Part shown: positions 121 to 20,902 of the stretch, piece by piece
Layout of the letters: each line of letters opens with the position of its first letter
Numbering within the stretch: the first letter of the stretch is position 1
IMG/VR virus record: IMGVR_UViG_3300030329_004737
Span: 1-22,059 of that record
DNA: 22,059 nt
Reading direction: 5' to 3' (one strand)
From: a virus
Position numbers and translations under genes: made by a program
Notes under the pieces: generated by a model
Database searches by the model: none
What the model saw: the letters and a program-made list of their open reading frames with translations, nothing else
What the model was told of the DNA's origin: nothing

Positions 121-239
121 TTCTTCTTCTTAGGGGCAGCCTTCTTCTTAGCTGCTGGCTTCTTAACTGGCTCTGGATCAGGTGTGCTAACAACAACGCG
201 TCGCGCATCTGGTCCAACATATTTAATTTCGCTGGGCAT
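117..239 (-). CDS. Small basic protein, 40 aa, Lys/Ala/Pro tail
   Basis: A short reading frame starts at ATG 239-237 and ends at TGA 119-117. The protein opens MPSEIKYVGPDARRVVVSTP, continues DPEPVKKPAAKK and ends in a lysine-, alanine- and proline-rich tail closing with KKKK. It overlaps the last 17 bases of the giant gene in the +1 frame. An AAAGG about 7 bases upstream of the ATG fits a ribosome site, and an in-frame TAG seven codons before the ATG makes this the only upstream start. The tail resembles histone H1-like or nucleic-acid-binding tails, and the N-terminal half (KYVGPDARRVVV) looks like a small beta-rich fold seen in short phage structural proteins. Both readings are inference. 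With only 40 residues a chance frame cannot be excluded, but the tight coupling on both sides supports a real gene. Confidence 0.55.
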   Translation of the reverse strand: MPSEIKYVGPDARRVVVSTPDPEPVKKPAAKKKAAPKKKK

Positions 240-3200
240 TTTTCTGCCTTTCTTTTTCTAGGCGCTGCTGAAAGGTAGCAGCTCGCCTTCGTGATTCTTT
301 AGTAATGTCAAGCCGTCTTTGTTTCAAGTCTTCCTGGCTCTTGCGAATAGATGCAGGACTTCTTTTTTGCACGGGTTTACCATCAATAATCAGATTCGGA
401 ATGTATCCTTTGTCCCCGCTAATCAGCTTACCCATTTGATTCATGAGCTTACGACGCTTTGCTTTATGAGCGTCAATAGCACGGGTGAAGTGATCGAAGT
501 CCTTCTTTGCTAATTCCATTTCATGCTCAGAAGAAGCCGTTGCCATTTTGTTTTCCGAGTATCTCTTAACTGAATCCTCAAACCCCTTATAGAAATCCTT
601 AAACCAATGAGGGTCTTTATACTTGTGAGAGCCGTCAGGACCAATAACACGCGGCGCTTCAATGGGCATCTCTCGGAAATAAACCTGAGTAATAGCGTCA
701 AGAGTATGATCAGCCATGAACTTGATCTGCTGCTCTCGCGGCCAGGCACTAAAGTTTCTTCCTATCTTTTTCTCTTGCTGCATAATCAAGTTGCGGAAAG
801 CGGACAGCCCACTCTTAGGGGCAATCATTCCTGTGCGCGGTGCTACCGCTTTTAGGATCTGCATCGTGTCAACACCCATGGGAAGAACAATGGCAGCAAG
901 ATCTGCCATCAGTTCTTGTGTTGGGTTCTCTATATCTTGACCGTACTTTTTACCTGTTTGGAATTTCGTAAAGATCTCCATCATTGGAGAGCCGCTTAAG
1001 AATCCAAGAGCCAGAATATCCTTAGGGCGCAATGCTTGTTTCTGATCAATGTCCATAAGCATTCTTTGTTTGATCTTAAGTGAGTTGTTCAGGATCTTTT
1101 GATGACCACGACTCAGAGAGTTCAGGTATTTGTTTGAGTACTCAATTGGTTTAGACTCTTCTAATGATAAAGGGTTAGAGCCACCTAGCCCAATGAATGA
1201 GCGGATGCCTCTTCCTGCATACAAAGACATGTAAGCCATCTGGCTCCAGAAGAGTTCACTCTGAGACATCGCATTAAAATTGTTTGCACCATATGCTTTA
1301 ATCCAACCAGCTTTATCGGACGGCTCAAACAAAGCTAGGGGATCAGGGCCTACCTGCAAGCCGTGACGCAAAGCCCTTCTTACAGCTTCACCCCAATATT
1401 CTTTGCCTTGATAGAACTGTTGCGCAGCCTGTTGTACCATCGCTGTTTTGCGGATGGCTCTTCCTGCTTCAGCCGCAGCCCAAAGAGCATTAACTTTCAT
1501 GTTATTGGTCTTGAACATCGGGGTCCGAGTGTTGCCAAACAAAGTATTTGAAACGATCCCTGGCTTACCCGGAAGATCAAGCATCAAGTAAGCGAAGCTC
1601 ATAAAAGGGCTAGCCAAGAATAGGAGGGGGTTCATCCCTTTACCAGACAAGCCTGCTCGAGCATTCCTAATAAACCGAGGAACCAGATTGTAATCAGGAA
1701 TCAGATAGTCTGTCTTGATCTTAGCCGCTTGCGACATAAGCTCATCAACCTTGCCCTTGCTTACGACTTTCTTACCCCGTGTCCAATGAAGCTTCCCGTC
1801 AATATTCTTCCGAACAAGCCTGGTTACTCTGTTCTTCCCGGTCACTAGATCAATATAGTCACCATCCTTAAGCTGGTTCATATAGTTATCTAGGTCAATA
1901 AAGTGCCGGGTAAACTCAGCTGTCTTAGGATAGGAATCCTCCATTGCATAAAGAGCCTTACGAGCACGCTCGAGATTCCTAGGGCCCTTGTCCATGAACT
2001 TAGATATTGCTGATATAACCTTAGGTGGAACATTTAGCCTCTGGGCAAATTCAATGATTTGGGTCGGAGCATAACCTGCCTCGATCAATGTCCCTATCTC
2101 AACCTCGGAAAAGGTTGTCTTAATAAAGCGATTCCTTTTTGCTTGAGCGAAAGCGCGTCCTAGTTGTGGGTTACTCTCCGTGAACTTCTTAGGGTTGCTG
2201 TTGAATCTCCATGTACCCCAAACAGTGCCCGCTACCCTGGCAGCAATAGCTGCTGGTGTTTCGCCGGTATTCAAGCCGATGTTAATCGTATGGCTTCCTG
2301 TGTTGCCCAGATTCGTTTTCGCTCTCATGATTGTATAAGATGTCTTTGTTCGGCCAAACAGCCAGCCAAAGAAGGTCTCTCTGTATTGCTCTGCTGCCTG
2401 CTTAAACCAAATACGATCAGACATCTGAGCATGCCAATCAGGATGGACATACACATCATACATAAAGTCATTAGAGAACTCAGCCGGGTCTGCATCCTTT
2501 GTGCTCTTTGAGCTTTCCTCGAGAGCCTGCTTCATCTCTTCAGGTAAAGCATCCTCAAGGATGTTCATCATATTATTCTTCTGACCCTTTTCAGTGAGGC
2601 GCTTGTACTTCCTTAGGCTGTCAAGCCAGCGACCAACTACTGAATCAGCATTGACAGTCCAGGTTCCGTCTTCTGATTTTTCTCCGACGTACTGTTTGAT
2701 CTCTTCATCGGTAAGCTTTCTTTTGTTCGGAAGATTCTGCTCAAGAGCATCAACAAATGCCTGGGGATCTGATGCCGCGCCTCGAACATTCTTTGAATCA
2801 GAGCCGTCAATAAGTTCTACTGGCGACACCTTAACCACGGTGCCATCTTCGTTGACTACTCGATTGGGCAACCCAAGAGGCTCGGCCTCTCTTGCAACCA
2901 AATGAGAAGAGGCTAAGCGTGATAGGTTTACTGTCGCTGTAGATGTCGAACCAGCACCACGCCTCTGAAGGTCCATAATGATAGCTCTGCCAATAGATCT
3001 TCCCTTTGCTACACCAGCGATGTTCCTGTTTATTTGAGATAACGCCTCGCCAGCGATAGTATCCATCAGCTTAGCGTTGTCGGCTATCTCAGCAATGGCA
3101 CTGTCGATTGATTTGTCGACATTGAATTCGCCGAGAACTTTTTCTTTCTCACCCAGAATGCGTATCTTTCCAGGAACCTTTCTCAGGATAGCGGCCCCAT

Positions 3201-6200
3201 CTAGCAATTTGTTCTTTGCTTCTTTCGATAGCCATGCAGCAGGATTATCTGAGCCGACAAACGGAACAGTAAACTTCTGAAGGTAATGATCAATTGCCTC
3301 GATTAAAGCTTCTCGGTTCTTTTTGTTTTTAGCTCCAGCAAAACTGCCTGGCAGTTCGTCGGTTATTCTGCTCACGAGCTTATTGCGAACAGCAAACCTT
3401 AGAGAGTTAGAAGCAAGCAGGGATCTCCCGTTGCCCAGGATCTCAAATACACCAGCCTTCCAGGCATTAACTTCTCTCTCGCTAAGACCTATCTTCGATG
3501 GGAGGCTGAACTTCTGAACAAGCCTTCTGATCGCTGACCATGCTCGAGCACTCATAACCGGTGCTTTGATTTCAACCGTTGGTAGCGGCTTCTTCTTCGG
3601 AGCATCATCACCCTTGGGTGGTTTGCCCGGAGGTTTGGGTGGCCCCTGTGGCGGCCCTTCAGGGGCCGCAGCAGGGGCAGATCTCCGAGCTTTAAGCTCT
3701 CGAACAAAAGCCTCTTCAGCTACTCTTGCTTCTGCTGCATCTACAAGCATGTCTATAATTTGCTGCTTGCCAGGCTCCGTCTTCATGTTTCTTAGCGCAC
3801 CAGACGGATCATTCTTTAGCTTAAAGTTATAGTCTCTCGCCTGCCTGACAACATCGGGAAACTCTTGCCTTAATGCCTCTAACGATTTCGATTCTAAATC
3901 TTTTTTGAAGGCTTCGATCTTTGGGTCCAGAACCCTACTCGGCAACACATTCGTCGGAGTGCCTTCAGGTGTCGGAGTCGTAGAGGTTGCCTGTGCAGCA
4001 AACTGCTCCTCAAGAGTTGGCGCTCTCACTTCAGCGGGCTCAGGTACAGGAGCCCTTTGGGCAGCCTCTTGCCTCACCTCGGCAGCGGTCTCAGGCTTAG
4101 GCGCTGGAGGTTTAGTAAACTTATCGCCAGCAGCTTTTACTCTTTCCTTAGCTGCTTCAAGCGCTTTGCCCTCTTGGTAATGAGCCTCTTCTTTTCCTTT
4201 GGGGATCTCATCAAAAGGGGTAGTCTTCCATTTAGACTCAGCAATTAATTTTACATCTTTGTTATAATCTTTAGCTGTATATGATTTAGCTGATTCAGGC
4301 TTAGGTGCTGGAGGTTTGGGCGCTGATTGTCGTGCTTTGTGCTCCTTCAAGGAGCGCAGGGAAGTCAGGAGCGCAGGGAAAGTTTTTGCCCAAAACTTAT
4401 CCCTGACAGGGTGAGTAATCTCCCCTGAGCTATCCAGAGCTTTTCTAAAATCTGGAACCTGATCGTACTTTGCTTCAAGTATTTCAGCCATAAGAGCCCG
4501 GTTTGTTTCTTTGTTTACCGGGGCTCCCCGCCCTTTTGATTTAGCCTGTGGGCCAGTAAGCTTCTCGTAACCAGGAACATACTCACCAGATTTGTACGCC
4601 TGATATGCACCCTCTGCTGTATTGAATGTCTTCCCTCGGAATTCGAACGGGTAAAAATAAAGGTTACTGAGTTCCTTATTGTATCCTTGGCCATAATGAA
4701 CCCTTGTCTCTGTAGGCTCTGGCCACTGATAGGGCTTAGATTCCGGGAATAAGGTACCTCTAGCATTTAAAGAATCAACCGCATCGTTAATGCGGTCTTC
4801 CATTTTTTGGCGGTGCTCGAAACGCTGTGCTTTGTTTGCAAACTCTTTGATGCTCTCGTTCGGAGCATTCTTCCCTACCTCAATTGTTTCAATATCATTG
4901 TTAAGGGGCTTGGTTTGGCGAACTTCCTGAATCTGCTCAGGGGTTATATCAACAGTAACACCGGCATTCTGGAATTCTTGATTAGGAGCTGAAACCTCTT
5001 TCCTCGCTTCGATGTTCCGACGCAGGGCAAACACCTCATTAGCTGTTAAGCCTTTGTCATTGAGGCCCCTGCTTATCTCATCCAGTTTGCTAAAGGGGAT
5101 CTCTCGGTCCATTGGACCAAGCTCTTCAAGAACCTTTCTCGCCTTTGGTGACACCTGGCGCTGAGGCTTCCCGCTGAAAGACTCTGCCGCTATCGCATTC
5201 ATTGTCTTGTTAAGCTGGGTAAAGGGAGTAAGAGCAATGTTCATCTCAAGATTCGCAACACCCTCCTCAACACGGGCGATCACGCTCTTGAAGACATCCG
5301 CAACGGTAGGCTCCGTTTTAATTAGTGTGACATGAGGGTTATCTCGCTTAAAGTTCTCGACTCTATTGCGACGAAGAATCTCTACCTCACCGAAGTAGGA
5401 AGACTTAACCCACTTGTTTAAGCCTCGAGTAAAGCCCCCCTCAACAGCGCCCTTCTTGCCTTTTGCTGCTGCATCGAGATCTGCCTTAAGTTCCTTTAGC
5501 TCGTCTCTGGATCTCTCAAGAATCTCATTTGCTTTTTCCGCTAGGGCATCAGGATCTTTTATCCCTCTTAGCTCTCTATCGTAACGAGAAAAGACAGTCC
5601 CGATCTCATCGTTAATCTTAGCCATAAGAGGACGCGCTGCCTCACCAGCAACGGCTGTCTCTGTTACCTCTCCTCTCTTGCCCGCCTCAATCTCATCAAT
5701 AAGGTTTGTATAACGATAGCCTTCAACTTGAGATCCTAAACTCTGATAGGGTTTGCCATCCCTTCTCTTCATCGCGCTGTTTTTAGGATTAGGCTGAATT
5801 ACATTCAGGATTTTCCTTACAAGATTCAGGGGCAGACCAGAAGCGATAGCATCTCGAGCAATCCTCTGGAGAACTCGTCGCTGATTCCACTGTCCTTTTC
5901 TTAATCCGGCTACTGATTCTTTCGCCTGATTAAGCAAGGCCCAGAATTTCTGAGCCTTGTGCCCAGCCTTAATATCGTTCGTAACCAGATGAAGAACGCG
6001 ACCATTTTTGCCCAGAGCTTTGATCAGTTTCGCTTTGCTGTTTCTTTCCTTGTAGGGGAGATTCATAACCTCAGGCATCTGAGTACTTGCAAAGTCTTTA
6101 AGCTCTTTGAAACTTAGGCTTTCTAGCGACGGAGCAACGGAGTTCTTCTCAATCTCTAGCAGGTCTGCCTTTGATAATGAGTCAAGCGAATTGGCCGCCT

Positions 6201-9200
6201 TAAGCTCAGCCTCTCTTTTCTCCTGGCGCTCTTTGCTAGCGTGCTTCTCTCTCGATTTTTCATCGGTAGATAATTGCTTTTTCCGCTCCTTTTCAAACTG
6301 ATACGCCTCAGCTATTTGCCTGGTCTCCTCAGGAGAGCGCTGCATTGTATCCTGCATCTTTGCTGTTGCAGCTTTTGGCTTGCCTGCGCCTGTAAGTTCC
6401 CCTTCGCCAGTATAGACCATTGCCTTTCTGCCAGGCTCAAGGTCTGCATCTCTTTCTCTAATCTGATCGCCCTGAAGTGGTCTTCTTACTGCTCCACTTT
6501 TTCCTTGGAACCCTTCGTCCTGAGAGACGCGCCTGAAAAGCTTGGAGCCTTCAATCAATTCACCCTTAGGGGTGATTGATTGAAGGACCGAGTCAAGGCC
6601 CTCACCTTTAAGCAGGAGCTTCTTGTACCGCTTCTGAAGCCTCGAGAAAGTATCTGTTTGAGCCCGGCTGATCTTTACTTCTTTTACCTGAGCAACTGCA
6701 TCGGCAATGTTATCTCTAACGAAGATGTCTTCTTCTGCCTTGTTGATCAGATCCCTAATTGTAGACTGCTCTAGGTCAGAGTTCTTGATGCTTTCAATAA
6801 GACCAGGAGGAGGCTCTTGATCAAATTGCTTATAGGCTTTTCTGATCCCCTCAATGTTATCGTTGAGGTTTTCAATCCGAGCAGCCCTCTGGGCATGATC
6901 GGGCGTGACAACAATAACTTCATCTACTTTGCTGCCTATACCAATATCAATTGCATAAGCACCTTCGGTCAAAGGCTCATCTGATGGCGGTCTTACTGGC
7001 TCTGGTTTGCCGGCAGCCTGCCAATTGCGCATTGCTTTATCGAGAGCCTTTTTGTTCTTCTTTGTTTTGTTTTTGTTGTAGCGATCTTTCGCTTCCTGGA
7101 GTTCTCTCCAGGTGGGAATCGTTGCCTGACCCCGACGAGTAGGCGCACCAGTAAAAGGAAGAGGGTTTCTTTCTTTTGGTGTCGGTACTTTTTCTCCGCG
7201 TCTTAGTAGCTCTTTCCGTGCTGCTACTAGCTCTTCTCTAAAAAGCTTACGAACACCGGGCGGATTACCATCGTAATCAGCCATCGCTTCATAGTTTTCA
7301 ATTTTTTCTAAGATCTCATTAACAGGGGTATCTTTGTAGTCTCCCCTCATTTGACCTTTATAGCCCTCAGGTTTAGCAGCTTCTGTTCGTGCTTTGTCTT
7401 CTTCTTTCCATCGGGCCTCTGGTAGCTCGTCATCTCCTCTTAGCTCGCTTCGAGCTTGCTCAGTGTCAGGCTTAGGAGTAGGCCGAGGAGCAGCAGTAGT
7501 TTCAGTATCAGTGACGACATCCGGGACTTGAACGTCTCTAGCTTCGCGCTGGCCAACAATGATTTCAGCATCTTTTTCTTGTTCTTTTGCTTTGACTGGA
7601 TCGATTTCAACTTCTCGATCTCTTTGTCTCTGCGCAAACTCATCATCAGGCTTTTTCCCGTACTCATCACGAAGAACATCTGTCATCTGAGCCAGGATCT
7701 CATCAACACGTTTAGGGTTCTCTGCTGCCTCTCTCGCTTTCTCGAGAAGCTCCCTGTTTGCAAAGCCCTCTTCCGTTGACCAAGCTTCTTCAATCTTCTT
7801 AAAGACAGATGCTTCTATTTGTGGATTGCCCCTAAGGAAATTCCTGAGTTGGCCAACAAGAGGAAGCGCCATGATCTCAGGTATCCCAAGGAGGCTTGCC
7901 TTGAGATACCACATGGCAATGTTGCCCAGTGCCTCTCGCTTGGTATAGCTAACAAGCTGACCCGGTAATGGTTTCTCGATTAACGAGGCAAGCCCATCAG
8001 CACCAGCTTTCGCATAGGCTTCTTCAATAGCATTAGCGCCCTTTTGGACACCGCCTGGCTCTCTTCTCTTAGGTCTGAATTTCTCATTGGCCTTGCGAAC
8101 ACTTTCGGGAATCGCCTGAACAGCAGACTGATAACCACTCTGGAGTGCTGCTAGTTTACCTGATGGGTTCTTAGAGACGTGTTCTCTGATTGCGCCCATC
8201 ATTGCTGGGGACAGCCTGCCCCCAAGAAACTTTACAATTAATGGAGCCGTTAAAAGAACAGGGATCGAAGGCTTGTATTTCATTGTCTTTACGGGGGCTG
8301 TTCCCATTCCCGTAATCATACCGATCAAACCCTGAGTACCAAATAACTCCCCATAGTATTCAGCGGTACCCATGGCATCCTCACCCATCGACTCCATCGT
8401 TCTAGCATCTACAATGGGCTGGCCTTGTCCGATGGCTGCCTTTGCAGCAGCAATGATTCCTTCCCTCAAAATCTTTGCTTCGTGCCCAAAGATAATATCT
8501 TCCCATTCAAGCGGAGGTTTGCCCTCGCTTATGAGCTTGGCATTTAATGCCTCCATATCTTCAATGGCTTCTCTAAACTCAACATGACTCCGAACCATTG
8601 GAGATTCCATGCTGTAGTAGAAATCAGATTGGCGATCAGCGACACCAACATAAGCCTGACGATATGCATTGAACTTCGATTTAATTGACTGAGCTTCTTC
8701 TGGGGGCAGGTGTTTAGCATCTAATAATGCTTGCTCAATAAACCCAGGGCGACCATCTTCCCTCTTTGCCATAAGGGCAGCGTAATAAGGATTGTCACCG
8801 GGCCTCGAGTTCTCAGTTCCTCGAAGACCCTGATCAAGAGGTGTGTATGAAATTTCATCTGAGTCTTTAGCTCGCTCACTAAAGATTCCTGGATACTCTG
8901 ACTTAGCTATGCGCTCCGGTCTCGGGACACGCATGTTATCCAGATGATCATCTCTTTGCCTCTTGAGTTCATCTATATCCTTTTGTGTCCAGCCATTATC
9001 GAGGAGATAACGATCACCCAAAGCTTCAACCTCGTTGGTCCTCATCTTCTCTTTGAGTAACTCTACTTCCTCATCCTTCGCCCACTGTCTTCTTTTTCGG
9101 CGAAGCCATGCAGGAATAAACCCAACAAGAGGGGCGGCTGCACCCAGAAAAGCGCCAGTCGAAGCAACACCAGTAACCAGTTCTTTTACTAGTGGCTTAG

Positions 9201-9237
9201 TATCTTCATCAAACTCAAGTAATCCTGGATCAGCCAC
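223..9237 (-). CDS. Giant 3004-aa virion (ejection/polyvalent-type) protein with NADAR domain
   Basis: This protein probably acts as the large internal virion protein ejected with the DNA. The role is inferred from size and position, being last in a 199/694/3004-aa trio after the tail genes. Visible parts: a hydrophobic Gly/Ala segment followed by a basic cluster (residues 20-50); more hydrophobic stretches near 300-350 and 440-470; long charged helical or coiled-coil regions (about 500-1500) with a SAP-like stretch at 1037-1076; a NADAR domain at 1511-1632; Pro/Lys linkers at about 1632-1890, including the very Pro-rich 1858-1893; and a globular C-terminal part with hydrophobic segments near 2535-2562 and 2775-2800, ending in a basic helix. 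The start is GTG, overlapping the previous stop by one base (TAGTG), with only a weak AGGGACGG site upstream, so translation is probably coupled. I see no transglycosylase motif and no RNA-polymerase motifs of the N4 virion type. The C-terminal third may be a large-polyvalent-protein-associated region, which is uncertain. Confidence 0.9.
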   Translation of the reverse strand: MADPGLLEFDEDTKPLVKELVTGVASTGAFLGAAAPLVGFIPAWLRRKRRQWAKDEEVELLKEKMRTNEVEALGDRYLLDNGWTQKDIDELKRQRDDHLDNMRVPRPERIAKSEYPGIFSERAKDSDEISYTPLDQGLRGTENSRPGDNPYYAALMAKREDGRPGFIEQALLDAKHLPPEEAQSIKSKFNAYRQAYVGVADRQSDFYYSMESPMVRSHVEFREAIEDMEALNAKLISEGKPPLEWEDIIFGHEAKILREGIIAAAKAAIGQGQPIVDARTMESMGEDAMGTAEYYGELFGTQGLIGMITGMGTAPVKTMKYKPSIPVLLTAPLIVKFLGGRLSPAMMGAIREHVSKNPSGKLAALQSGYQSAVQAIPESVRKANEKFRPKRREPGGVQKGANAIEEAYAKAGADGLASLIEKPLPGQLVSYTKREALGNIAMWYLKASLLGIPEIMALPLVGQLRNFLRGNPQIEASVFKKIEEAWSTEEGFANRELLEKAREAAENPKRVDEILAQMTDVLRDEYGKKPDDEFAQRQRDREVEIDPVKAKEQEKDAEIIVGQREARDVQVPDVVTDTETTAAPRPTPKPDTEQARSELRGDDELPEARWKEEDKARTEAAKPEGYKGQMRGDYKDTPVNEILEKIENYEAMADYDGNPPGVRKLFREELVAARKELLRRGEKVPTPKERNPLPFTGAPTRRGQATIPTWRELQEAKDRYNKNKTKKNKKALDKAMRNWQAAGKPEPVRPPSDEPLTEGAYAIDIGIGSKVDEVIVVTPDHAQRAARIENLNDNIEGIRKAYKQFDQEPPPGLIESIKNSDLEQSTIRDLINKAEEDIFVRDNIADAVAQVKEVKISRAQTDTFSRLQKRYKKLLLKGEGLDSVLQSITPKGELIEGSKLFRRVSQDEGFQGKSGAVRRPLQGDQIRERDADLEPGRKAMVYTGEGELTGAGKPKAATAKMQDTMQRSPEETRQIAEAYQFEKERKKQLSTDEKSREKHASKERQEKREAELKAANSLDSLSKADLLEIEKNSVAPSLESLSFKELKDFASTQMPEVMNLPYKERNSKAKLIKALGKNGRVLHLVTNDIKAGHKAQKFWALLNQAKESVAGLRKGQWNQRRVLQRIARDAIASGLPLNLVRKILNVIQPNPKNSAMKRRDGKPYQSLGSQVEGYRYTNLIDEIEAGKRGEVTETAVAGEAARPLMAKINDEIGTVFSRYDRELRGIKDPDALAEKANEILERSRDELKELKADLDAAAKGKKGAVEGGFTRGLNKWVKSSYFGEVEILRRNRVENFKRDNPHVTLIKTEPTVADVFKSVIARVEEGVANLEMNIALTPFTQLNKTMNAIAAESFSGKPQRQVSPKARKVLEELGPMDREIPFSKLDEISRGLNDKGLTANEVFALRRNIEARKEVSAPNQEFQNAGVTVDITPEQIQEVRQTKPLNNDIETIEVGKNAPNESIKEFANKAQRFEHRQKMEDRINDAVDSLNARGTLFPESKPYQWPEPTETRVHYGQGYNKELSNLYFYPFEFRGKTFNTAEGAYQAYKSGEYVPGYEKLTGPQAKSKGRGAPVNKETNRALMAEILEAKYDQVPDFRKALDSSGEITHPVRDKFWAKTFPALLTSLRSLKEHKARQSAPKPPAPKPESAKSYTAKDYNKDVKLIAESKWKTTPFDEIPKGKEEAHYQEGKALEAAKERVKAAGDKFTKPPAPKPETAAEVRQEAAQRAPVPEPAEVRAPTLEEQFAAQATSTTPTPEGTPTNVLPSRVLDPKIEAFKKDLESKSLEALRQEFPDVVRQARDYNFKLKNDPSGALRNMKTEPGKQQIIDMLVDAAEARVAEEAFVRELKARRSAPAAAPEGPPQGPPKPPGKPPKGDDAPKKKPLPTVEIKAPVMSARAWSAIRRLVQKFSLPSKIGLSEREVNAWKAGVFEILGNGRSLLASNSLRFAVRNKLVSRITDELPGSFAGAKNKKNREALIEAIDHYLQKFTVPFVGSDNPAAWLSKEAKNKLLDGAAILRKVPGKIRILGEKEKVLGEFNVDKSIDSAIAEIADNAKLMDTIAGEALSQINRNIAGVAKGRSIGRAIIMDLQRRGAGSTSTATVNLSRLASSHLVAREAEPLGLPNRVVNEDGTVVKVSPVELIDGSDSKNVRGAASDPQAFVDALEQNLPNKRKLTDEEIKQYVGEKSEDGTWTVNADSVVGRWLDSLRKYKRLTEKGQKNNMMNILEDALPEEMKQALEESSKSTKDADPAEFSNDFMYDVYVHPDWHAQMSDRIWFKQAAEQYRETFFGWLFGRTKTSYTIMRAKTNLGNTGSHTINIGLNTGETPAAIAARVAGTVWGTWRFNSNPKKFTESNPQLGRAFAQAKRNRFIKTTFSEVEIGTLIEAGYAPTQIIEFAQRLNVPPKVISAISKFMDKGPRNLERARKALYAMEDSYPKTAEFTRHFIDLDNYMNQLKDGDYIDLVTGKNRVTRLVRKNIDGKLHWTRGKKVVSKGKVDELMSQAAKIKTDYLIPDYNLVPRFIRNARAGLSGKGMNPLLFLASPFMSFAYLMLDLPGKPGIVSNTLFGNTRTPMFKTNNMKVNALWAAAEAGRAIRKTAMVQQAAQQFYQGKEYWGEAVRRALRHGLQVGPDPLALFEPSDKAGWIKAYGANNFNAMSQSELFWSQMAYMSLYAGRGIRSFIGLGGSNPLSLEESKPIEYSNKYLNSLSRGHQKILNNSLKIKQRMLMDIDQKQALRPKDILALGFLSGSPMMEIFTKFQTGKKYGQDIENPTQELMADLAAIVLPMGVDTMQILKAVAPRTGMIAPKSGLSAFRNLIMQQEKKIGRNFSAWPREQQIKFMADHTLDAITQVYFREMPIEAPRVIGPDGSHKYKDPHWFKDFYKGFEDSVKRYSENKMATASSEHEMELAKKDFDHFTRAIDAHKAKRRKLMNQMGKLISGDKGYIPNLIIDGKPVQKRSPASIRKSQEDLKQRRLDITKESRRRAATFQQRLEKERQKNAQRN
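4342..4707 (-). other. NADAR-like domain within the giant protein (residues 1511-1632)
   Basis: The stretch reads like the NADAR/YbiA fold (DUF1768). It has the opening HYGQGYNKELSNLYFYPFEF, then the G-K-T-F-N-T-A-E-G-A-Y-Q-A-Y-K block that matches the family pattern of a beta strand followed by an xE..YQ..K helix (E1542, Q1546, K1549). A KSKGRG loop at 1566-1571 follows, then a helix ALMAEILEAKYDQVPDFRKA, and the closing THPVRDKFWAKTFPALL (H1609, R1612, D1613, W1616, F1620, P1621), similar to phage-type members that end in a W..eFP.iL pattern. Established knowledge: NADAR enzymes hydrolyse N-glycosidic ADP-ribose bonds, including ADP-ribose on guanine bases in DNA placed by DarT-type toxins, and are found beside such toxins and in phages. 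Activity here is inferred. Confidence 0.8.
6010..6129 (-). other. SAP/Rho-N-like short helical module in the giant protein
   Basis: Residues 1037-1076 follow the spacing of SAP or Rho N-terminal-like helix-extended-loop-helix modules. A serine/leucine-rich first helix (SLESLSFKELKDFA) is followed by an extended segment and then SKAKLIKAL, where the K-x-x-L-I-x-x-L pattern is typical. Such modules often bind nucleic acid and occur in phage structural and recombination proteins. The match is from pattern only and is short, so it may simply be an amphipathic helical pair. Confidence 0.3.
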
Positions 9238-11321
9238 TATTGAAACCGTCCCTGAGTTGCAGCCGTTTTAACTTTGTTGAAGGTGGAAGCATCATTATTT
9301 GCCATTAGTGTTTTCGTTGCCCACCTTTTGAACTTCCTGATTTTAGCTCTGCCCTCTTTGGTCCTTCTGTTAAAGGATGTCGCGGGAAGTCTCCCCATTA
9401 AGCTTCTGACCTGCTTTGCTACCTTACTTCTTCGTCGATCAAGCTTCTCCATCTTGTTTGCTTCAGCAGTCCGAGCTTTGCGCTCGGCTGCTGAACCAGT
9501 GGAGCGCTCTTGTTCAACGGGTGAAACAGGTCGAGCTCTTGTGGCAGCCAGCCTGCGATTCTGTTGAGCCAGTCTTTGCTCTTTTGTTTGGGTATCACCC
9601 TCAAGATCGAGATTGATCTTTCTTCTTCTTCTTCTCGCTCTGCGCTGCTTCTTTCGCTTCTTCTCTTCTTCAAGCTGCCTTTTGCTTTTTGTTCCTGGGT
9701 CGTAATCTTTTAGTGCGGCAGCTTCCTCGGCACTTCCTGGAGGATGCTTGCGTTTGCGGCGAGCAACAGGCTTGCGCGGAGGATCGACCTCCACCTCTTC
9801 TTTCTTTTCTTCGGCCTCTTTCGCCTTTGCTCTCGCCTTCCTCATCAGATCCCCAAGGCTTCCAACTACTTTCCCTAGAGTGCTTTGTTGTTCTATGTCG
9901 TTAGAGACAGCATCAGATTCATCTTCTTCGATCTCACCCGTGCCCCCTCCTCCAGAAGCTCCTCCACCGCCCGCTGCTTCTGTGGGCATGCCGAGTGAGA
10001 AGTTTTTCCACTGCATCCGCTTTACGAAGGCGGGATCGTTAAGAGCATTCAGCATGTCATCTATGCTGCGGCCGGAAGCCATGACGACAGAAAAGGGATC
10101 GCTGACCTGCATTTGAAACAGTTGGTCATTTACGTTTGCATAGTTAGAGCGCTGTAAAGCGGCTCCACTGTTAGCACGGGCTCGACGCACAAGCTCCAGA
10201 AGAAGTGGAAAGTTTTTGTGCTTAGAAGCATTCATTACTTGCTGGTAACCGAGAATGCGCTCCTGCAAAACAAAGGCTGCCTCTTCCGGCCCAAGCTTCA
10301 TGCGTGCCTTTTGTTTATCAGTTGGCTGCAAGGCTAAAGTGCCTGGCTTGATCGTTGTCCCCACAACATCATTTGTAGATAACGGTGCCACGAAGTTCGT
10401 GTCATTAGGGTTAGCCCTTAGCGCGCTTGCTGCATTGATATAGTTAGCAGATTGGCTCTTATGCATAGCATCGAATAACGGCTTCGGCTTCTTCACCAGC
10501 TTAGGAGCCGGGCCCCCACGCACAGTAGCACGCTGTGGCTTACGGCCCGGGAATAAACGCTTAAGATTTTGAGTGATAGCAGCTTGCCCTTGACCAGCAG
10601 CCTGACCACTAAGAGTAGCAGCCCTCATTCTGTCATAGGCAGCTAGAGATTCATCAGTAGCCTCTTTGCGCTGGGCCATCGTCTCTGCACCAGCAGCAAG
10701 CTCGTAACCTCGAGCGGCTGACTGCTGAGCAAGAGCTTGCTCTTCAATAGCTTCTGCTCGAGCAAGAGCGGCCTGCCTTCGCCTATGCTCGATCTCAGAA
10801 GCATCATGGCCAAAGAGGCTGCCAGCACCAGCAACAAGACGATCGAGAGGCCCACCGGCTCGCTCTTGGAGGGTTGCATACTGAGCCATCTGCGCGGGCG
10901 TGAGGCCGAGCCTGCCCTTTTGTCGCGCCTTGTATTCTTCTATAGCTGTTCTGGTTTCTGGTCCCATCGTCGCATCAAGTTTACCAGTAGGCGACATTGA
11001 TTTAGGCAACTCAAAGCCAGCTTCGATAAGCTTTCTTTGGAGCTTGCTGACAACCGGATCTCCTTTTGCTGCCGCTTCTGCTGCCCGAGCAAGCTGAACC
11101 ATCTCACCTGTAGACTGAACCTCAGAGAGGATCTTGTTTGCAGCCTTCTTCTTTTGAACGGCAGCGTTGATTACCCCGCCAACACTATCGGTTAACTTCC
11201 AAGCTGTGGCTACTCCAGAAGGAGAGGTCCACTGATCCGCGGTTCTTTGACCGGGACTTCGTTTGTATTGTGTCTGACGATAGCCTCGACGAAATACTGA
11301 ATCAGGTACAATCCTAGCCAT
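9237..11321 (-). CDS. Internal virion protein with peptidoglycan-binding domain (694 aa)
   Basis: The only recognisable domain is a peptidoglycan-binding fold at residues about 88-142, with V..LQ..L...GF, a G-K-L-D turn and the G-P-E-T-R-T-A-I-E-E-Y helix. The rest has no visible hydrolase motif. Residues 160-260 are Ala/Gln/Glu-rich and probably helical. A Gly/Ser linker followed by an acidic patch lies at about 448-472, and a strongly basic stretch with runs of K and R at about 511-570. The C-terminus (to residue 694) is again basic. Length and middle position in the trio parallel T7 gp15 (about 747 aa), so I infer a virion or ejection protein that meets the cell wall. Start ATG at 11321 has an AGGA eight bases upstream and lies 9 bases after the preceding stop. 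Confidence 0.8.
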   Translation of the reverse strand: MARIVPDSVFRRGYRQTQYKRSPGQRTADQWTSPSGVATAWKLTDSVGGVINAAVQKKKAANKILSEVQSTGEMVQLARAAEAAAKGDPVVSKLQRKLIEAGFELPKSMSPTGKLDATMGPETRTAIEEYKARQKGRLGLTPAQMAQYATLQERAGGPLDRLVAGAGSLFGHDASEIEHRRRQAALARAEAIEEQALAQQSAARGYELAAGAETMAQRKEATDESLAAYDRMRAATLSGQAAGQGQAAITQNLKRLFPGRKPQRATVRGGPAPKLVKKPKPLFDAMHKSQSANYINAASALRANPNDTNFVAPLSTNDVVGTTIKPGTLALQPTDKQKARMKLGPEEAAFVLQERILGYQQVMNASKHKNFPLLLELVRRARANSGAALQRSNYANVNDQLFQMQVSDPFSVVMASGRSIDDMLNALNDPAFVKRMQWKNFSLGMPTEAAGGGGASGGGGTGEIEEDESDAVSNDIEQQSTLGKVVGSLGDLMRKARAKAKEAEEKKEEVEVDPPRKPVARRKRKHPPGSAEEAAALKDYDPGTKSKRQLEEEKKRKKQRRARRRRRKINLDLEGDTQTKEQRLAQQNRRLAATRARPVSPVEQERSTGSAAERKARTAEANKMEKLDRRRSKVAKQVRSLMGRLPATSFNRRTKEGRAKIRKFKRWATKTLMANNDASTFNKVKTAATQGRFQ
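10896..11060 (-). other. PG_binding_1-like domain (residues 88-142 of the 694-aa protein)
   Basis: The segment contains the hallmarks of the short three-helix peptidoglycan-binding repeat: a first helix VVSKLQRKLIEAGFEL, the turn TGKLDATMGPET and the last helix RTAIEEYKARQKGRLGL. In this family the domain anchors cell-wall hydrolases or virion proteins to murein. No hydrolase is fused to it here. Confidence 0.8.
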
Positions 11322-11330
11322 GATATAATC

Positions 11331-11930
11331 CTACCAGTCGTTGATCTGCTGATAGCCTTCACCACCCTCTTGAAGATATTTGCGCTCAAGTTCTCTCGCA
11401 GCTTCAGGATGTTGAAGTCTCAGTTTAGCAATCTCAGATCGAACAGCGCTGTTCATTGCTTCCTCGTCATCGTAAAGCCAGCCACGATTTTCTGTGATTG
11501 CTGTTTCAATAGCAGACTCAGCATCAGCAAGAGCAGCAACGTAGTCCTCTTCTTTTGTTCCTGCTTTTGCGGCATACTCTGCGGCTGATAGCTCTGCTTG
11601 CGCTGCGCCTTGCCTCAATCCCAGGCGTCGCTCCTCATCAGCCTGAGCCTGCCTGATGCCAGCCATCTCAGCGTCCATACCAGCTTGCCCTGCTGCCCCG
11701 AGGAAGCCACCGCCTGCGGCCATCCGCCCTGTAGGGGCGGCTGCCGCAAGGCCCCGAGCGGCACCATAACGAATATTCCTTTGGCGTTCTGCTGCTGACT
11801 CATCAAATCGAGCAAGGCCCTCTTTTGCGCCAGCAACCAGATCTTCCTGGGCAGCTAATCCCCGCTCTCTTTGAGCAGCGCGCTTGCGATAAGCCTCTGA
11901 CGCCATTCGATCACTTCTTGTGGCAACCAT
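11331..11930 (-). CDS. Small internal virion protein, Ala/Gly-rich (199 aa)
   Basis: No catalytic motif is visible. The protein is mostly helical, rich in Ala, Arg, Glu and Gln, with a Gly/Ala-rich hydrophobic patch at residues about 56-85 (G..RGLAAAAPTGRMAAGGG) that could insert in a membrane or pack into a helical pore. Its C-terminal third is acidic. Length and position, just before the 694- and 3004-aa genes, parallel T7 gp14 (196 aa), the first internal protein ejected into the outer membrane. That assignment is by analogy, not by sequence match. A very good ribosome site (TTGAGGTG, then AATT, then ATG) lies in the 8-base gap after the preceding stop and fixes the start at 11930. Confidence 0.75.
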   Translation of the reverse strand: MVATRSDRMASEAYRKRAAQRERGLAAQEDLVAGAKEGLARFDESAAERQRNIRYGAARGLAAAAPTGRMAAGGGFLGAAGQAGMDAEMAGIRQAQADEERRLGLRQGAAQAELSAAEYAAKAGTKEEDYVAALADAESAIETAITENRGWLYDDEEAMNSAVRSEIAKLRLQHPEAARELERKYLQEGGEGYQQINDW

Positions 11931-17895: not shown

Positions 17896-18570
17896 TTACC
17901 AAGCCCAATTGTCGTAATAGTCCACATACTGAGAACCTTCATGGTTCCTACCTTGCTCGAGGTAAGTTTCGAGGTTCTTCGTTTTCCTGGCAAGCTCCTG
18001 GTTGACTTGAGGCAAATCAGCAGCATCCCTGACAGCGTATCGAAGATACGCATAAAGAGGGATCATGTCATGGAAGCCGTCTAAATCGTCAAGATAAGCA
18101 GTAGGAGCACCGCCAGTGAAAGTGATATTGTGATAAGGAACGTATTCAATTCTAAAAGAGTCTGAATAGGTTCCCCCAAGAACGATTGTATTGTTTGTGA
18201 AAGTATAACCATCAAAAGAGATTGTCCTTTCTGATGGAGACCCAGAAAGATAGCGGAGAACCTCGTTCGATCCGGTATTGTTAATGCGAGCTAACCTCAA
18301 AAGACGCTCAAGCTTCTTCCCCGCTGTAGCATTCTGACCGCATAGGATGGCCCCAGAAGGGCCTGTAGCGACCGTTAGGTCTATCTTGGAACCCGTGGCA
18401 TCAAGGACGTGCTCCGTCGCAAAAATAAAGGGATCTACGTTGCAGACAGCCTGACGAAAGTCATTGTAAGCCTGGCTCAGATAAAGCTCTACATTTGCAT
18501 CAGTGATAAATGTTGAGTCCGCTTCGTCCATATAGGTCCGAAACATTGCAGCGACATCAGCAGGCGTCAT
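17896..18570 (-). CDS. Head-tail connector (adaptor) protein (224 aa)
   Basis: The N-terminal helix-turn-helix arrangement (MTPADVAAMFRTYMDEAD, then ITDANVELYLSQAYNDFRQA) is the usual opening of podovirus adaptor proteins that dock under the portal (T7 gp11 and P22 gp4 type). The central beta-rich part has FDGYTFTNNTIVLGGTYSDS and the C-terminal helix runs from YAYLRYAVRDAA through LARKTKNLETYLEQG. The length is near the usual 190-220 aa. Its ATG overlaps the portal stop (ATGA), and GGGAGG six bases upstream is a strong ribosome site. Placement between portal and nozzle genes supports the call. Confidence 0.8.
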   Translation of the reverse strand: MTPADVAAMFRTYMDEADSTFITDANVELYLSQAYNDFRQAVCNVDPFIFATEHVLDATGSKIDLTVATGPSGAILCGQNATAGKKLERLLRLARINNTGSNEVLRYLSGSPSERTISFDGYTFTNNTIVLGGTYSDSFRIEYVPYHNITFTGGAPTAYLDDLDGFHDMIPLYAYLRYAVRDAADLPQVNQELARKTKNLETYLEQGRNHEGSQYVDYYDNWAW

Positions 18571-20537
18571 CCCACACCTCCCATTCGAGGCGCTCGGCCA
18601 GCTAAGATGGGCTTAGCATCATCGGTAACAGCGCGCCTCTCATCGAGGCTGCTGTACTGATCCGCCATCTGAGCAGCAGCCCCCGGACTTGAAACGCTGG
18701 TCATCATACCGGCAGCATCATCAGGCTTCTTAGGCATTCTCGGGAAGACAGTTCGCTCCAACTCTTGGCGAACAAAGTCTTCATCCTCTTTGCCGAAGGT
18801 GGCAACAGCAACAAGGACATCCCTAATGTAGTTCTGTGTTTCTTCAGGCAGCCTGTAGTAAGGCTCTGTCCGCATGAAGCCCTCGAACACTTCCTGGAAA
18901 GCCTTGAGGTCATCCGTCGGCATGATCTCAATTTCGCGCCCAGCAATAACAGCCTCAAGCATGTCGTGAGCATGGCTAAACCCAGCCATCTTGCGGGTAA
19001 CTCGAGCATTGCCCGTCCGGTAATCAAGAGCCCTGAGGGCTTCTTCCTTATCGAGAAGGCCAAGCTTGACCATCTCAAGAACACGTTGATCCCGATCCTT
19101 CTTCTCGTCCCGAAACATGGAACCTGACTCGAGGTAGATTTCAGCATCATGACAAAGGTCGGTGCTATTCAAAACCTTATGAACAACACGACCCGTATTA
19201 TCCATCATGCGAATCATTCGATCTCGGGTGTAAAATTTGCGAGCCATCTCAAGGACGCAAAGAGCCACGTCCTTAACCGCTTCCTCGATGTTGTGCTGGG
19301 TAACTAAAAGCTGCTGAGAATCTCGATTGGTGAGCGACTCAATAGCAGCGCCGGATTCGATGCCAATAGCTCGCTTACCAAGACTAGTGCTATGGACCCC
19401 CGCAACATCATGCATCTCAGATGAAAGCTGTCGAATGTTGTCGAGTACATAACCAGGCAAAGGAGCAGCAGCAACCTGACTAGGAGCCGGTCCTGAAGCA
19501 GCGTTGTAGACAACCTTTTCGCCCGGTCGAGAATCCGAGAGCGCATCTTTAGCCACTCCTGACGACTTAGGAACAAGCCACTTAGGGTTGCCCATAAGCT
19601 CAGCGTTCTGAATAATCTGGGTTCTTCCCCGGTTATACATTGTCTGAAGCTCAATCAGGGGCTCAATCATGCCCATGCCATAGAGACGGCCTGGCATCTT
19701 TGTGTACTGAACAATGGTGATGGGGCTTTTCCCGACAGGCCACTTTGACTTATAAAGCCAGTTTGTGCCCAGAAGCATCCCCATCTCACCAGTCTTCATG
19801 TAAACCTCAAAGACTTCGAGCCTATCCTTAAGCTCGTTGGAATCTGTTCCGCTTGAAGCCTGGAAGAAAGTACGAAAGGTTCTTTGGGGTTTGTCGCCTG
19901 ACTTCTTAATGATCTCAGCCTTGTCAGGATACGCAGCAATAAGATCATCCTTGTGAACGATGTGGCGAATCGCACAATAGCGAGACTCTTCAACCTTTGT
20001 GGCACCAGGCTCAAAGTAAAGATCGTAAGGGCTAACAACCCGAGTATGAATCTTGTCATCTTCGGGGTCATAAAAAGTATGAAGTCCGGCATTGCCCGCA
20101 ACAAGAAGCCATTCGAGAAGAGTTGTTAAAACACTCTTCATGTCCTCTGTATGCCAATAGTACCGAAGAAAAGTCTCAGAGGCTTCAGACTTCATGATGT
20201 CCTCAGTAGAAGGACTTGAAGGCATCACCGTCATTGCTGGGTAAGCAATGGTGAGTCGCGCCAAGAGGTTTCGGTAAATATTGATAATGAGATTAAAGGT
20301 AGCCCGACTGCGCTTTCGGTCCATCGGGATACCGATAAAGTTCTTAAGGTTCTTGTCCCATCGAATATGTTGGCGGCCCTGTAGGAATAGGCTGCACATA
20401 TCCCAGACTCTGGTGAACCTCTGCCTCTGAGTTGTAAAATTAGAAAGCTGGCTCTGAAGCGTCCCCGGTTTAGGAAGTTTCACTTCCTTGTCCTGAGGGG
20501 TAACACTCTCTGCAATAAGGACAACGCCAGACTTCAT
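18567..20537 (-). CDS. Portal protein (656 aa)
   Basis: The portal forms the ring through which DNA is packaged and ejected. The sequence fits large podovirus portals: N-terminal helices (TTQRQRFTRVWDMCSLFLQG), the segment GLHTFYDPEDDKIHTRVVSP with SPYDLYFEPGA, and a central segment MIEPLIELQTMYNRGRTQII (about residues 288-310) followed by NPKWLVPKSS. The stem/tunnel-type region is GYVLDNIRQLSSEMHDVAGV and then LGKRAIGIESGAAIESLTNR (about 360-405). After this come long helices and a disordered C-terminus ending APRMGGVG. The ATG overlaps the upstream stop by one base (TAATG) without a good ribosome site, indicating coupling. No terminase gene is in the window. Confidence 0.93.
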   Translation of the reverse strand: MKSGVVLIAESVTPQDKEVKLPKPGTLQSQLSNFTTQRQRFTRVWDMCSLFLQGRQHIRWDKNLKNFIGIPMDRKRSRATFNLIINIYRNLLARLTIAYPAMTVMPSSPSTEDIMKSEASETFLRYYWHTEDMKSVLTTLLEWLLVAGNAGLHTFYDPEDDKIHTRVVSPYDLYFEPGATKVEESRYCAIRHIVHKDDLIAAYPDKAEIIKKSGDKPQRTFRTFFQASSGTDSNELKDRLEVFEVYMKTGEMGMLLGTNWLYKSKWPVGKSPITIVQYTKMPGRLYGMGMIEPLIELQTMYNRGRTQIIQNAELMGNPKWLVPKSSGVAKDALSDSRPGEKVVYNAASGPAPSQVAAAPLPGYVLDNIRQLSSEMHDVAGVHSTSLGKRAIGIESGAAIESLTNRDSQQLLVTQHNIEEAVKDVALCVLEMARKFYTRDRMIRMMDNTGRVVHKVLNSTDLCHDAEIYLESGSMFRDEKKDRDQRVLEMVKLGLLDKEEALRALDYRTGNARVTRKMAGFSHAHDMLEAVIAGREIEIMPTDDLKAFQEVFEGFMRTEPYYRLPEETQNYIRDVLVAVATFGKEDEDFVRQELERTVFPRMPKKPDDAAGMMTSVSSPGAAAQMADQYSSLDERRAVTDDAKPILAGRAPRMGGVG

Positions 20538-20902
20538 TAGGTTGCTGCTTTCGTTATGAACTCGCCAGCCTCGAGGAATCCGTCAGCACCTTTTTTGGCG
20601 TCTTTTAGCTTCCTCGCTTTAGCCGCTGCTTCTCTTGCTGCCTTGGAATACTTGCCGTAGCTTTCGCCCACTGCCGCTGCATCACCCGGACCCTGAGAAC
20701 CCGTATAGCCACCAAGAATCGCTCCTAGAGCACCGCCAACAAGAGCACCCTTAGGGCCGCCGACCTTCATGCCGAGAGCAGCGCCCTCTAGGCCGCCAGA
20801 GGCAGCACCGGCAAGTGCGCCCCCCGCATTAGTCTTGCTTTCCTTTTTCTTGGGAGAGTGCCTGGTAATCGTAGGCCGCGCACCAAAAACGTTATCTCTC
20901 AT
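20537..20902 (-). CDS. Small Gly/Ala-rich protein between capsid and portal (121 aa)
   Basis: The function is not recognised. Residues 1-25 are basic (RHSPKKKESK). Residues 27-68 are a glycine-zipper-like run of small residues (GGALAGAASGGLEGAALGMK, then further G..G repeats), which can form membrane-inserted or tightly packed helices. Residues 80-105 form a Lys/Ala-rich helix. A gene here in other podoviruses would often be a scaffold or small head protein, but this sequence lacks the acidic helical character of a scaffold. The glycine zipper also resembles membrane-active proteins. The ATG at 20902 is preceded by GGAGAGG, and the hairpin at 20915-20946 ends just before that site. The stop overlaps the portal start. 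Confidence 0.7.
   Translation of the reverse strand: MRDNVFGARPTITRHSPKKKESKTNAGGALAGAASGGLEGAALGMKVGGPKGALVGGALGAILGGYTGSQGPGDAAAVGESYGKYSKAAREAAAKARKLKDAKKGADGFLEAGEFITKAAT

Follow-up and report, generated by a model that had tools for sequence, protein, structure and literature searches.

A predicted histidine-type NADAR domain in a giant, putative ejection protein of a podovirus-like phage

The DNA analysed here, an IMG/VR virus record of 22,059 bp referred to as the window, comes from a podovirus-like, short-tailed phage and contains a gene for a giant protein in which residues 1511-1632 are a genuine NADAR domain. The giant is the last of three predicted ejection proteins, and its NADAR domain is assigned to the histidine type on the basis of a Thr-His pair in its last strand. 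With modest confidence, we incline to the reading that such a domain, carried by the largest ejection protein, reaches the cell at entry as a ready-made ADP-ribose N-glycosidase and counteracts host defence. The coordinates of the relevant features are given in Table 1.

Table 1. Features of the window that bear on the NADAR domain and its carrier protein (residue numbers are those of the giant protein)
Feature	Position	Strand	Basis
Portal protein, P22 type	18567..20537	-	PF16510 E 6.2e-28, above cut-off
199-aa Ala/Gly-rich protein, predicted gp14/gp7-like ejection protein	11331..11930	-	Position, size, composition; kept in G012
694-aa protein, predicted gp15-like ejection protein	9237..11321	-	Position, size (PMC8954989); weak PG_binding_1 match, E 0.0066
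Giant protein, 3004 aa, predicted gp16-like ejection protein	223..9237	-	Last of the 199/694/3004 trio, after the tail genes
Conserved N-terminal half of the giant, residues 2-1506	4720..9234	-	53% identical to G001
Hypervariable slot, residues 1507-1887: NADAR, then Pro/Ala/Glu/Lys-rich linkers	3577..4719	-	13-18% identity to G001, against ~53-60% on the flanks
NADAR domain, residues 1511-1632	4342..4707	-	Profiles, structure model, PDB fold matches
E1542 codon, equivalent to E88 of E. coli C7 NADAR (distal ribose)	4612..4614	-	Invariant in 11 sequences; role from PMC11543638
K1549 codon, equivalent to K95 of E. coli C7 NADAR (phosphates)	4591..4593	-	Invariant; 7 residues past the Glu, as in C7
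H1609 codon, last-strand His replacing the Glu/Asp of other NADARs	4411..4413	-	T-H invariant in 11 sequences
Conserved C-terminal part of the giant, residues 1888-2999	241..3576	-	60% identical to G001; ~24% to G012 and L065/L066

The existence of a NADAR domain at this place, as put forward in the original prediction, was borne out by several lines of evidence. Pfam returned no match on the whole 3004-aa protein, and the domain surfaced in shorter pieces only, in which PF08719 scored 19.6-20.2 bits (E 1.3e-5 in the six-frame search and 7.6e-4 with a 190-aa piece), that is below its cut-off of 35.1 bits, which is a curated threshold and not a defining property. Its relatives in crAss-like giants, unlike the window domain, pass this cut-off. 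The assignment nevertheless holds because the independent tests are strong. The domain matched phrog_652 (E 9.7e-5) and, by tblastn, annotated phage NADAR/YbiA genes (3e-8), and it was found at E 3e-11 (scaled to 1e5 sequences) by a profile built from 13 standalone NADARs alone and at E 2.8e-34 by a profile of its own relatives from which the window had been left out, whereas 200 shuffles of the giant protein gave no match to either of these two profiles. Similarly, an AlphaFold2 model of the domain, computed with 11 sequences (pLDDT 90.6, pTM 0.84), found solved NADARs as its best three matches in a Foldseek search of the PDB, namely YbiA (2B3W, 3.8e-6, TM 0.72), 8BAU (1.5e-3) and 8BAT (0.26, probability 0.82). 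These were the sole credible PDB matches, every other one having E > 1 and a probability below 0.1, and no credible non-NADAR fold was found there. A fold search against viral models also matched NADAR proteins, including the crAss-like giants of cr131_1, cr130_1 and cr272_1.

The residues that had originally been singled out (E1542, Q1546, K1549, W1616, F1620 and P1621) are correct, and in an alignment of giant-embedded relatives (11 sequences, with identity down to 26%) Q1546 is invariant as well as E1542 and K1549. The seven-residue spacing of the Glu and the Lys is that of E88/K95 in the E. coli C7 NADAR and of E43/K50 in the P. nicotianae NADAR (PMC11543638). Two features of the pocket had been overlooked, however. 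The W-G-(n)-G-x-N-x-L-G loop that marks canonical NADARs is absent from the window domain and from its relatives. The acidic residue that YbiA and DarT1-type NADARs have in the last strand is likewise absent from the window domain, which has T1608-H1609 instead, with either H1609 or T1608 at the exact position of the Glu. A last-strand histidine defines the phage gp30.3 subclass of NADARs (PMC11125620), and the window NADAR is therefore assigned, from its T-H pair, to the same His type as T4 gp30.3. Both have the histidine in place of Glu/Asp and have kept the Glu and the Lys, but gp30.3 is encoded by a standalone gene of the early region, is 152 aa long, is very distant in sequence (a long branch) and lies outside any virion protein. 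With E. coli YbiA (2B3W) and the DarT1-linked NADARs (8BAT, E. coli C7) the window domain shares the fold and the Glu/Lys spacing, whereas these standalone or antitoxin proteins have the acidic last-strand residue and the Gly-rich loop, both missing in the window.

These two losses, together with the variation of R1570 and K1566 within the clade to which the window NADAR belongs, would be compatible with a non-catalytic remnant or a binding module. We regard this as very unlikely, as E1542, Q1546, K1549 and the T-H pair are invariant over the whole range of identities in the alignment and T4 gp30.3 is active with a histidine at that place. Two closer comparisons with DarT1-linked NADARs were abandoned. 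K1566 was dropped as an equivalent of the DarT1-rescue lysine K115, since it varies in the clade, and membership in the DarT1-antitoxin NADARs of the BC4488 type was rejected, the last strand having His where Asp is expected and a DarT1 partner not being found nearby.

The minus-strand structural genes of the window code, in order, for a major head protein candidate, a 121-aa glycine-zipper protein, the portal protein, proteins of 224, 930, 219, 309 and 527 aa, and then the trio of 199, 694 and 3004 aa. The glycine-zipper protein (20537-20902), flanked by the head protein candidate on one side and the portal on the other, is in an odd position for a membrane-active protein. The gene of the giant begins with a GTG that overlaps the stop codon of the 694-aa gene (TAGTG) and has no internal stop. 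Its rank as the last of three predicted internal-protein genes, already noted in the original prediction, was confirmed, and the trio is kept in two related phages, G001 and G012. Podovirus ejection proteins comprise a gp14 of ~200 aa, a gp15 of 431-982 aa and a gp16 of 609-1337 aa (PMC8954989), a series which the trio fits in order and, for its first two members only, in size. Thus, like the gp16 of T7, of P22 and of other podoviruses, the giant is the last and largest of three proteins; it differs from them by its 3004 residues, by the lack of detectable homology and by its enzyme domain, no such domain being known in gp16s. Profile searches with the three proteins did not find homology to named ejection proteins, and the model of the 694-aa protein reached a pLDDT of 52.

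Comparison with related phages shows that the NADAR is an accessory, removable module of the giant protein. The nearest relative of the window, G001, has a portal protein 87% identical to that of the window and a giant of 2835 aa that is colinear with the window's over both conserved parts (~53-60% identity), but it has no NADAR, and the region corresponding to window residues 1501-1900 is about half as long there and 13-18% identical. The second relative, G012 (L054), is more distant (70% identity for the portal, 42% for the 527-aa gene product and 38% for the 199-aa gene product). Its giant of 3234 aa, just 24% identical to the window's in the C-terminal part, has a NADAR at the corresponding place, which is 57-61% identical to that of the window. 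A fourth member of the family, represented by two nearly identical contigs (L065/L066), has none. The domain being present in two members and absent from two others, it is accessory, and as homologues without it exist, it would not be needed for ejection.

The identity of the window NADAR is no higher to that of G012 (57%) than to NADARs on unrelated backbones (56-58%), which fits horizontal movement of the domain. A backbone diverging fast around a conserved enzyme is an alternative that has to be kept in view. Composition gave no hint of recent transfer, the NADAR segment and the whole gene having the same GC3 (0.44).

Relatives of the window NADAR were then collected from IMG/VR. When the window NADAR alone served as query, no close relative was detected there, and alignments including the crAss and G004 NADARs were needed; a search of genome contigs yielded no relatives. 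The scans applied no selection on ORF size but were seeded with giant-protein NADARs, so that they are not an unbiased census. The five NADARs nearest to that of the window are all in large proteins: G012 (3234 aa), G008 (more than 2531 aa), G009 (4646 aa), G004 (4275 aa) and G013 (L056, 1487 aa). Except for the NADAR, the backbones of the last four have nothing in common with the window's giant. The gene of the giant comes after the terminase, the portal and one small gene in G004, sits between the terminase and the portal in G009, and closes the structural operon in G008, in the order ~220/490/giant. In four of the six giants of the clade the NADAR is accompanied by a cpYpsA SLOG domain, which is nested in the NADAR in G004, follows it directly in G008 and G009, and lies ~300 residues downstream in G013. 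In the window and G012 giants no SLOG domain was detectable. Several giants thus bear more than one effector domain (NADAR and SLOG in G004, G008, G009 and G013, plus DUF7831 in G004), whereas the NADAR is the only domain recognised in the giant of the window. In G004 (L033 7308-8222, with the SLOG at contig positions 13681-14097), the SLOG is inserted after the pocket helix of the NADAR and ahead of its last helices. DUF7831 joins the NADAR in two unrelated giants, those of G004 (L033) and cr131_1 (L030), and may belong to the same ADP-ribose network.

A second group of NADARs with the T-H signature was present in crAss-like giants, namely those of cr126_1 (2402 aa), cr131_1 (1401 aa), cr130_1 (5801 aa) and cr272_1 (6386 aa), according to the record coordinates, and of further IMG/VR contigs. 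The crAss-like single genes L026 and L027, of 6386 and 5801 aa, respectively, are open only if TAG is read as an amino acid, and they combine the NADAR with RNA-polymerase-like segments. The cr126_1 giant (L018 5509-12717) is an orthologue of PhicrAss001 gp50 (L049 13486-20724), with identities of 30% and 24% over most of its length, and has a NADAR added at its N-terminus that gp50 lacks. Mass spectrometry detected gp50 in virions, and the protein is regarded as a cargo that leaves the particle together with the RNA polymerase (PMC10172136). Of the indirect evidence that a giant with a NADAR may be virion cargo, this orthology is the strongest. The likeness concerns the giant size, the virion cargo status of gp50 and the accessory T-H NADAR of cr126_1, whereas the RNA polymerase backbone is unrelated to the giant of the window and the NADAR is only ~31% identical.

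In trees, the canonical standalone NADARs formed a separate group (ultrafast bootstrap 98-100), and a single origin of the giant-embedded NADARs was not forced. In one of the trees the SLOG insert was left out of the G004 NADAR row. Not every His-type NADAR is giant-embedded, because T4 gp30.3 and the more degenerate GAP32_342 of a jumbo phage are standalone and have the histidine.

From the gene order and the crAss gp50 orthologue taken together, we consider it highly probable that the giant of the window is packaged and ejected. The ejection of the giant being deduced from synteny and structural genes being expressed late, the NADAR might instead act late in the producing cell or merely be carried along, with the giant not reaching the cytoplasm or the NADAR part staying outside; part of a gp16-like protein can indeed stay in the periplasm (PMC8954989). 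This appears quite unlikely to us, as the NADAR recurs in the giants of several phage types, one of which has a virion cargo protein as its orthologue, and a free-standing gene would be simpler for a late role.

According to the delivery reading that we favour, the NADAR was acquired as an insert in a variable linker of the gp16-like, largest ejection protein. The giant would be packed in the head and pushed out into the cell ahead of the DNA or together with it; the NADAR would then refold in the cytoplasm, and it would at once hydrolyse ADP-ribose N-glycosidic bonds made by a host defence. The Pfam score below the cut-off and the missing acidic residue and G-x-N-x-L-G loop count against this reading, as do the lack of detected homology between the trio and named ejection proteins and the existence of homologues that have no NADAR. 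The bonds concerned might be those on guanine of nucleic acid, a substrate suggested by the activity of gp30.3, which hydrolyses guanine-ADPr in DNA in vitro (PMC11125620) and in RNA (PMC11833690). They might also be those of small ADPr-derived signals, a substrate to which the SLOG partners and the reasoning of PMC9503650 point.

The domain had originally been proposed to be an antidote to a DarT-type DNA-ADP-ribosylating defence, a proposal that is weakened. Stripping of ADP-ribose from guanine of the incoming phage DNA, with neutralisation of DarT1-type toxins, would agree with the guanine-ADPr hydrolysis by every assayed NADAR, including that of T4, and with phage DNA being a DarT target (literature cited in PMC11125620). 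However, T4 gp30.3, which is of the His type, does not rescue DarT1 toxicity in vivo (PMC11125620), and the DarT1-linked NADARs use an Asp and a conserved Lys, the first of which is replaced in the window while the position of the second varies in the clade. The SLOG neighbours suggest small ADPr molecules equally, and no DarT was found among the ORFs around the giant gene, which are structural or without assignment. A DarT1 antidote is thus possible but not favoured, and we rate it as unlikely. Destruction of small NAD-derived immune signals or toxic ADPr derivatives, such as cADPR isomers, instead of nucleic-acid marks, is a possibility that we hold to be rather less than probable. The SLOG partner in most giants of the clade points to it, as does the argument that phage NADAR and SLOG proteins mainly counter low-molecular-weight ADPr signals (PMC9503650), but no SLOG is detectable in the two giants of the window's own family that have the NADAR, and in the literature found no NADAR is reported to cleave such signals, the assayed substrates being guanine-ADPr and, for YbiA, riboflavin intermediates.

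Virion-borne polyvalent proteins and phage NADAR genes are known. A survey describes viral and phage NADARs as typically standalone proteins with an unclear role, while mentioning that some are fused to SLOG and that NADARs are packaged in virions (PMC9503650). The claim of an unusual architecture is therefore fair with regard to the literature, but the architecture is not unique, as at least six different giant backbones hold such a NADAR. The giant of the window resembles the polyvalent phage proteins (Iyer and others 2017, PMC5512222), which are very large, multidomain and predicted to be virion-borne effectors at entry. Those contain ARTs and many other domains, and the word NADAR is absent from that paper, whereas the NADAR is all that is recognised in our protein. 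No description of a His-type NADAR embedded in several unrelated giants was found in the open-access literature searched. Phages seem to have repeatedly loaded a NADAR onto proteins that enter the cell first. More tentatively, a distinct His-type lineage may be a travelling cargo module of giant ejected proteins (podovirus gp16-like proteins, portal-side polyvalent giants and crAss-like virion RNA polymerases), through which a preformed de-ADP-ribosylase would enter before the genome and pre-empt ADP-ribose-based immunity. As one lineage occurs repeatedly in giant, probably ejected proteins with relatives that have or lack it, early delivery of an ADP-ribose eraser is directly testable, and the NADAR provides a functional handle on otherwise unannotated giants of podoviruses and crAss-like phages.

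Two minor observations concern the surroundings of the giant gene. From the portal (87%) through the 199-aa protein (63%) and the 694-aa protein (55%) to the giant (51%), identity to G001 declines steadily along the operon (window positions 223-11930), as though evolution were fastest in the predicted ejection proteins. The gene that comes after the giant (L008 10494-11186; L054 14856-15554) codes for a LamG-like protein, possibly involved in tail or adhesion functions, which differs far less between G001 and G012 than their giants do.
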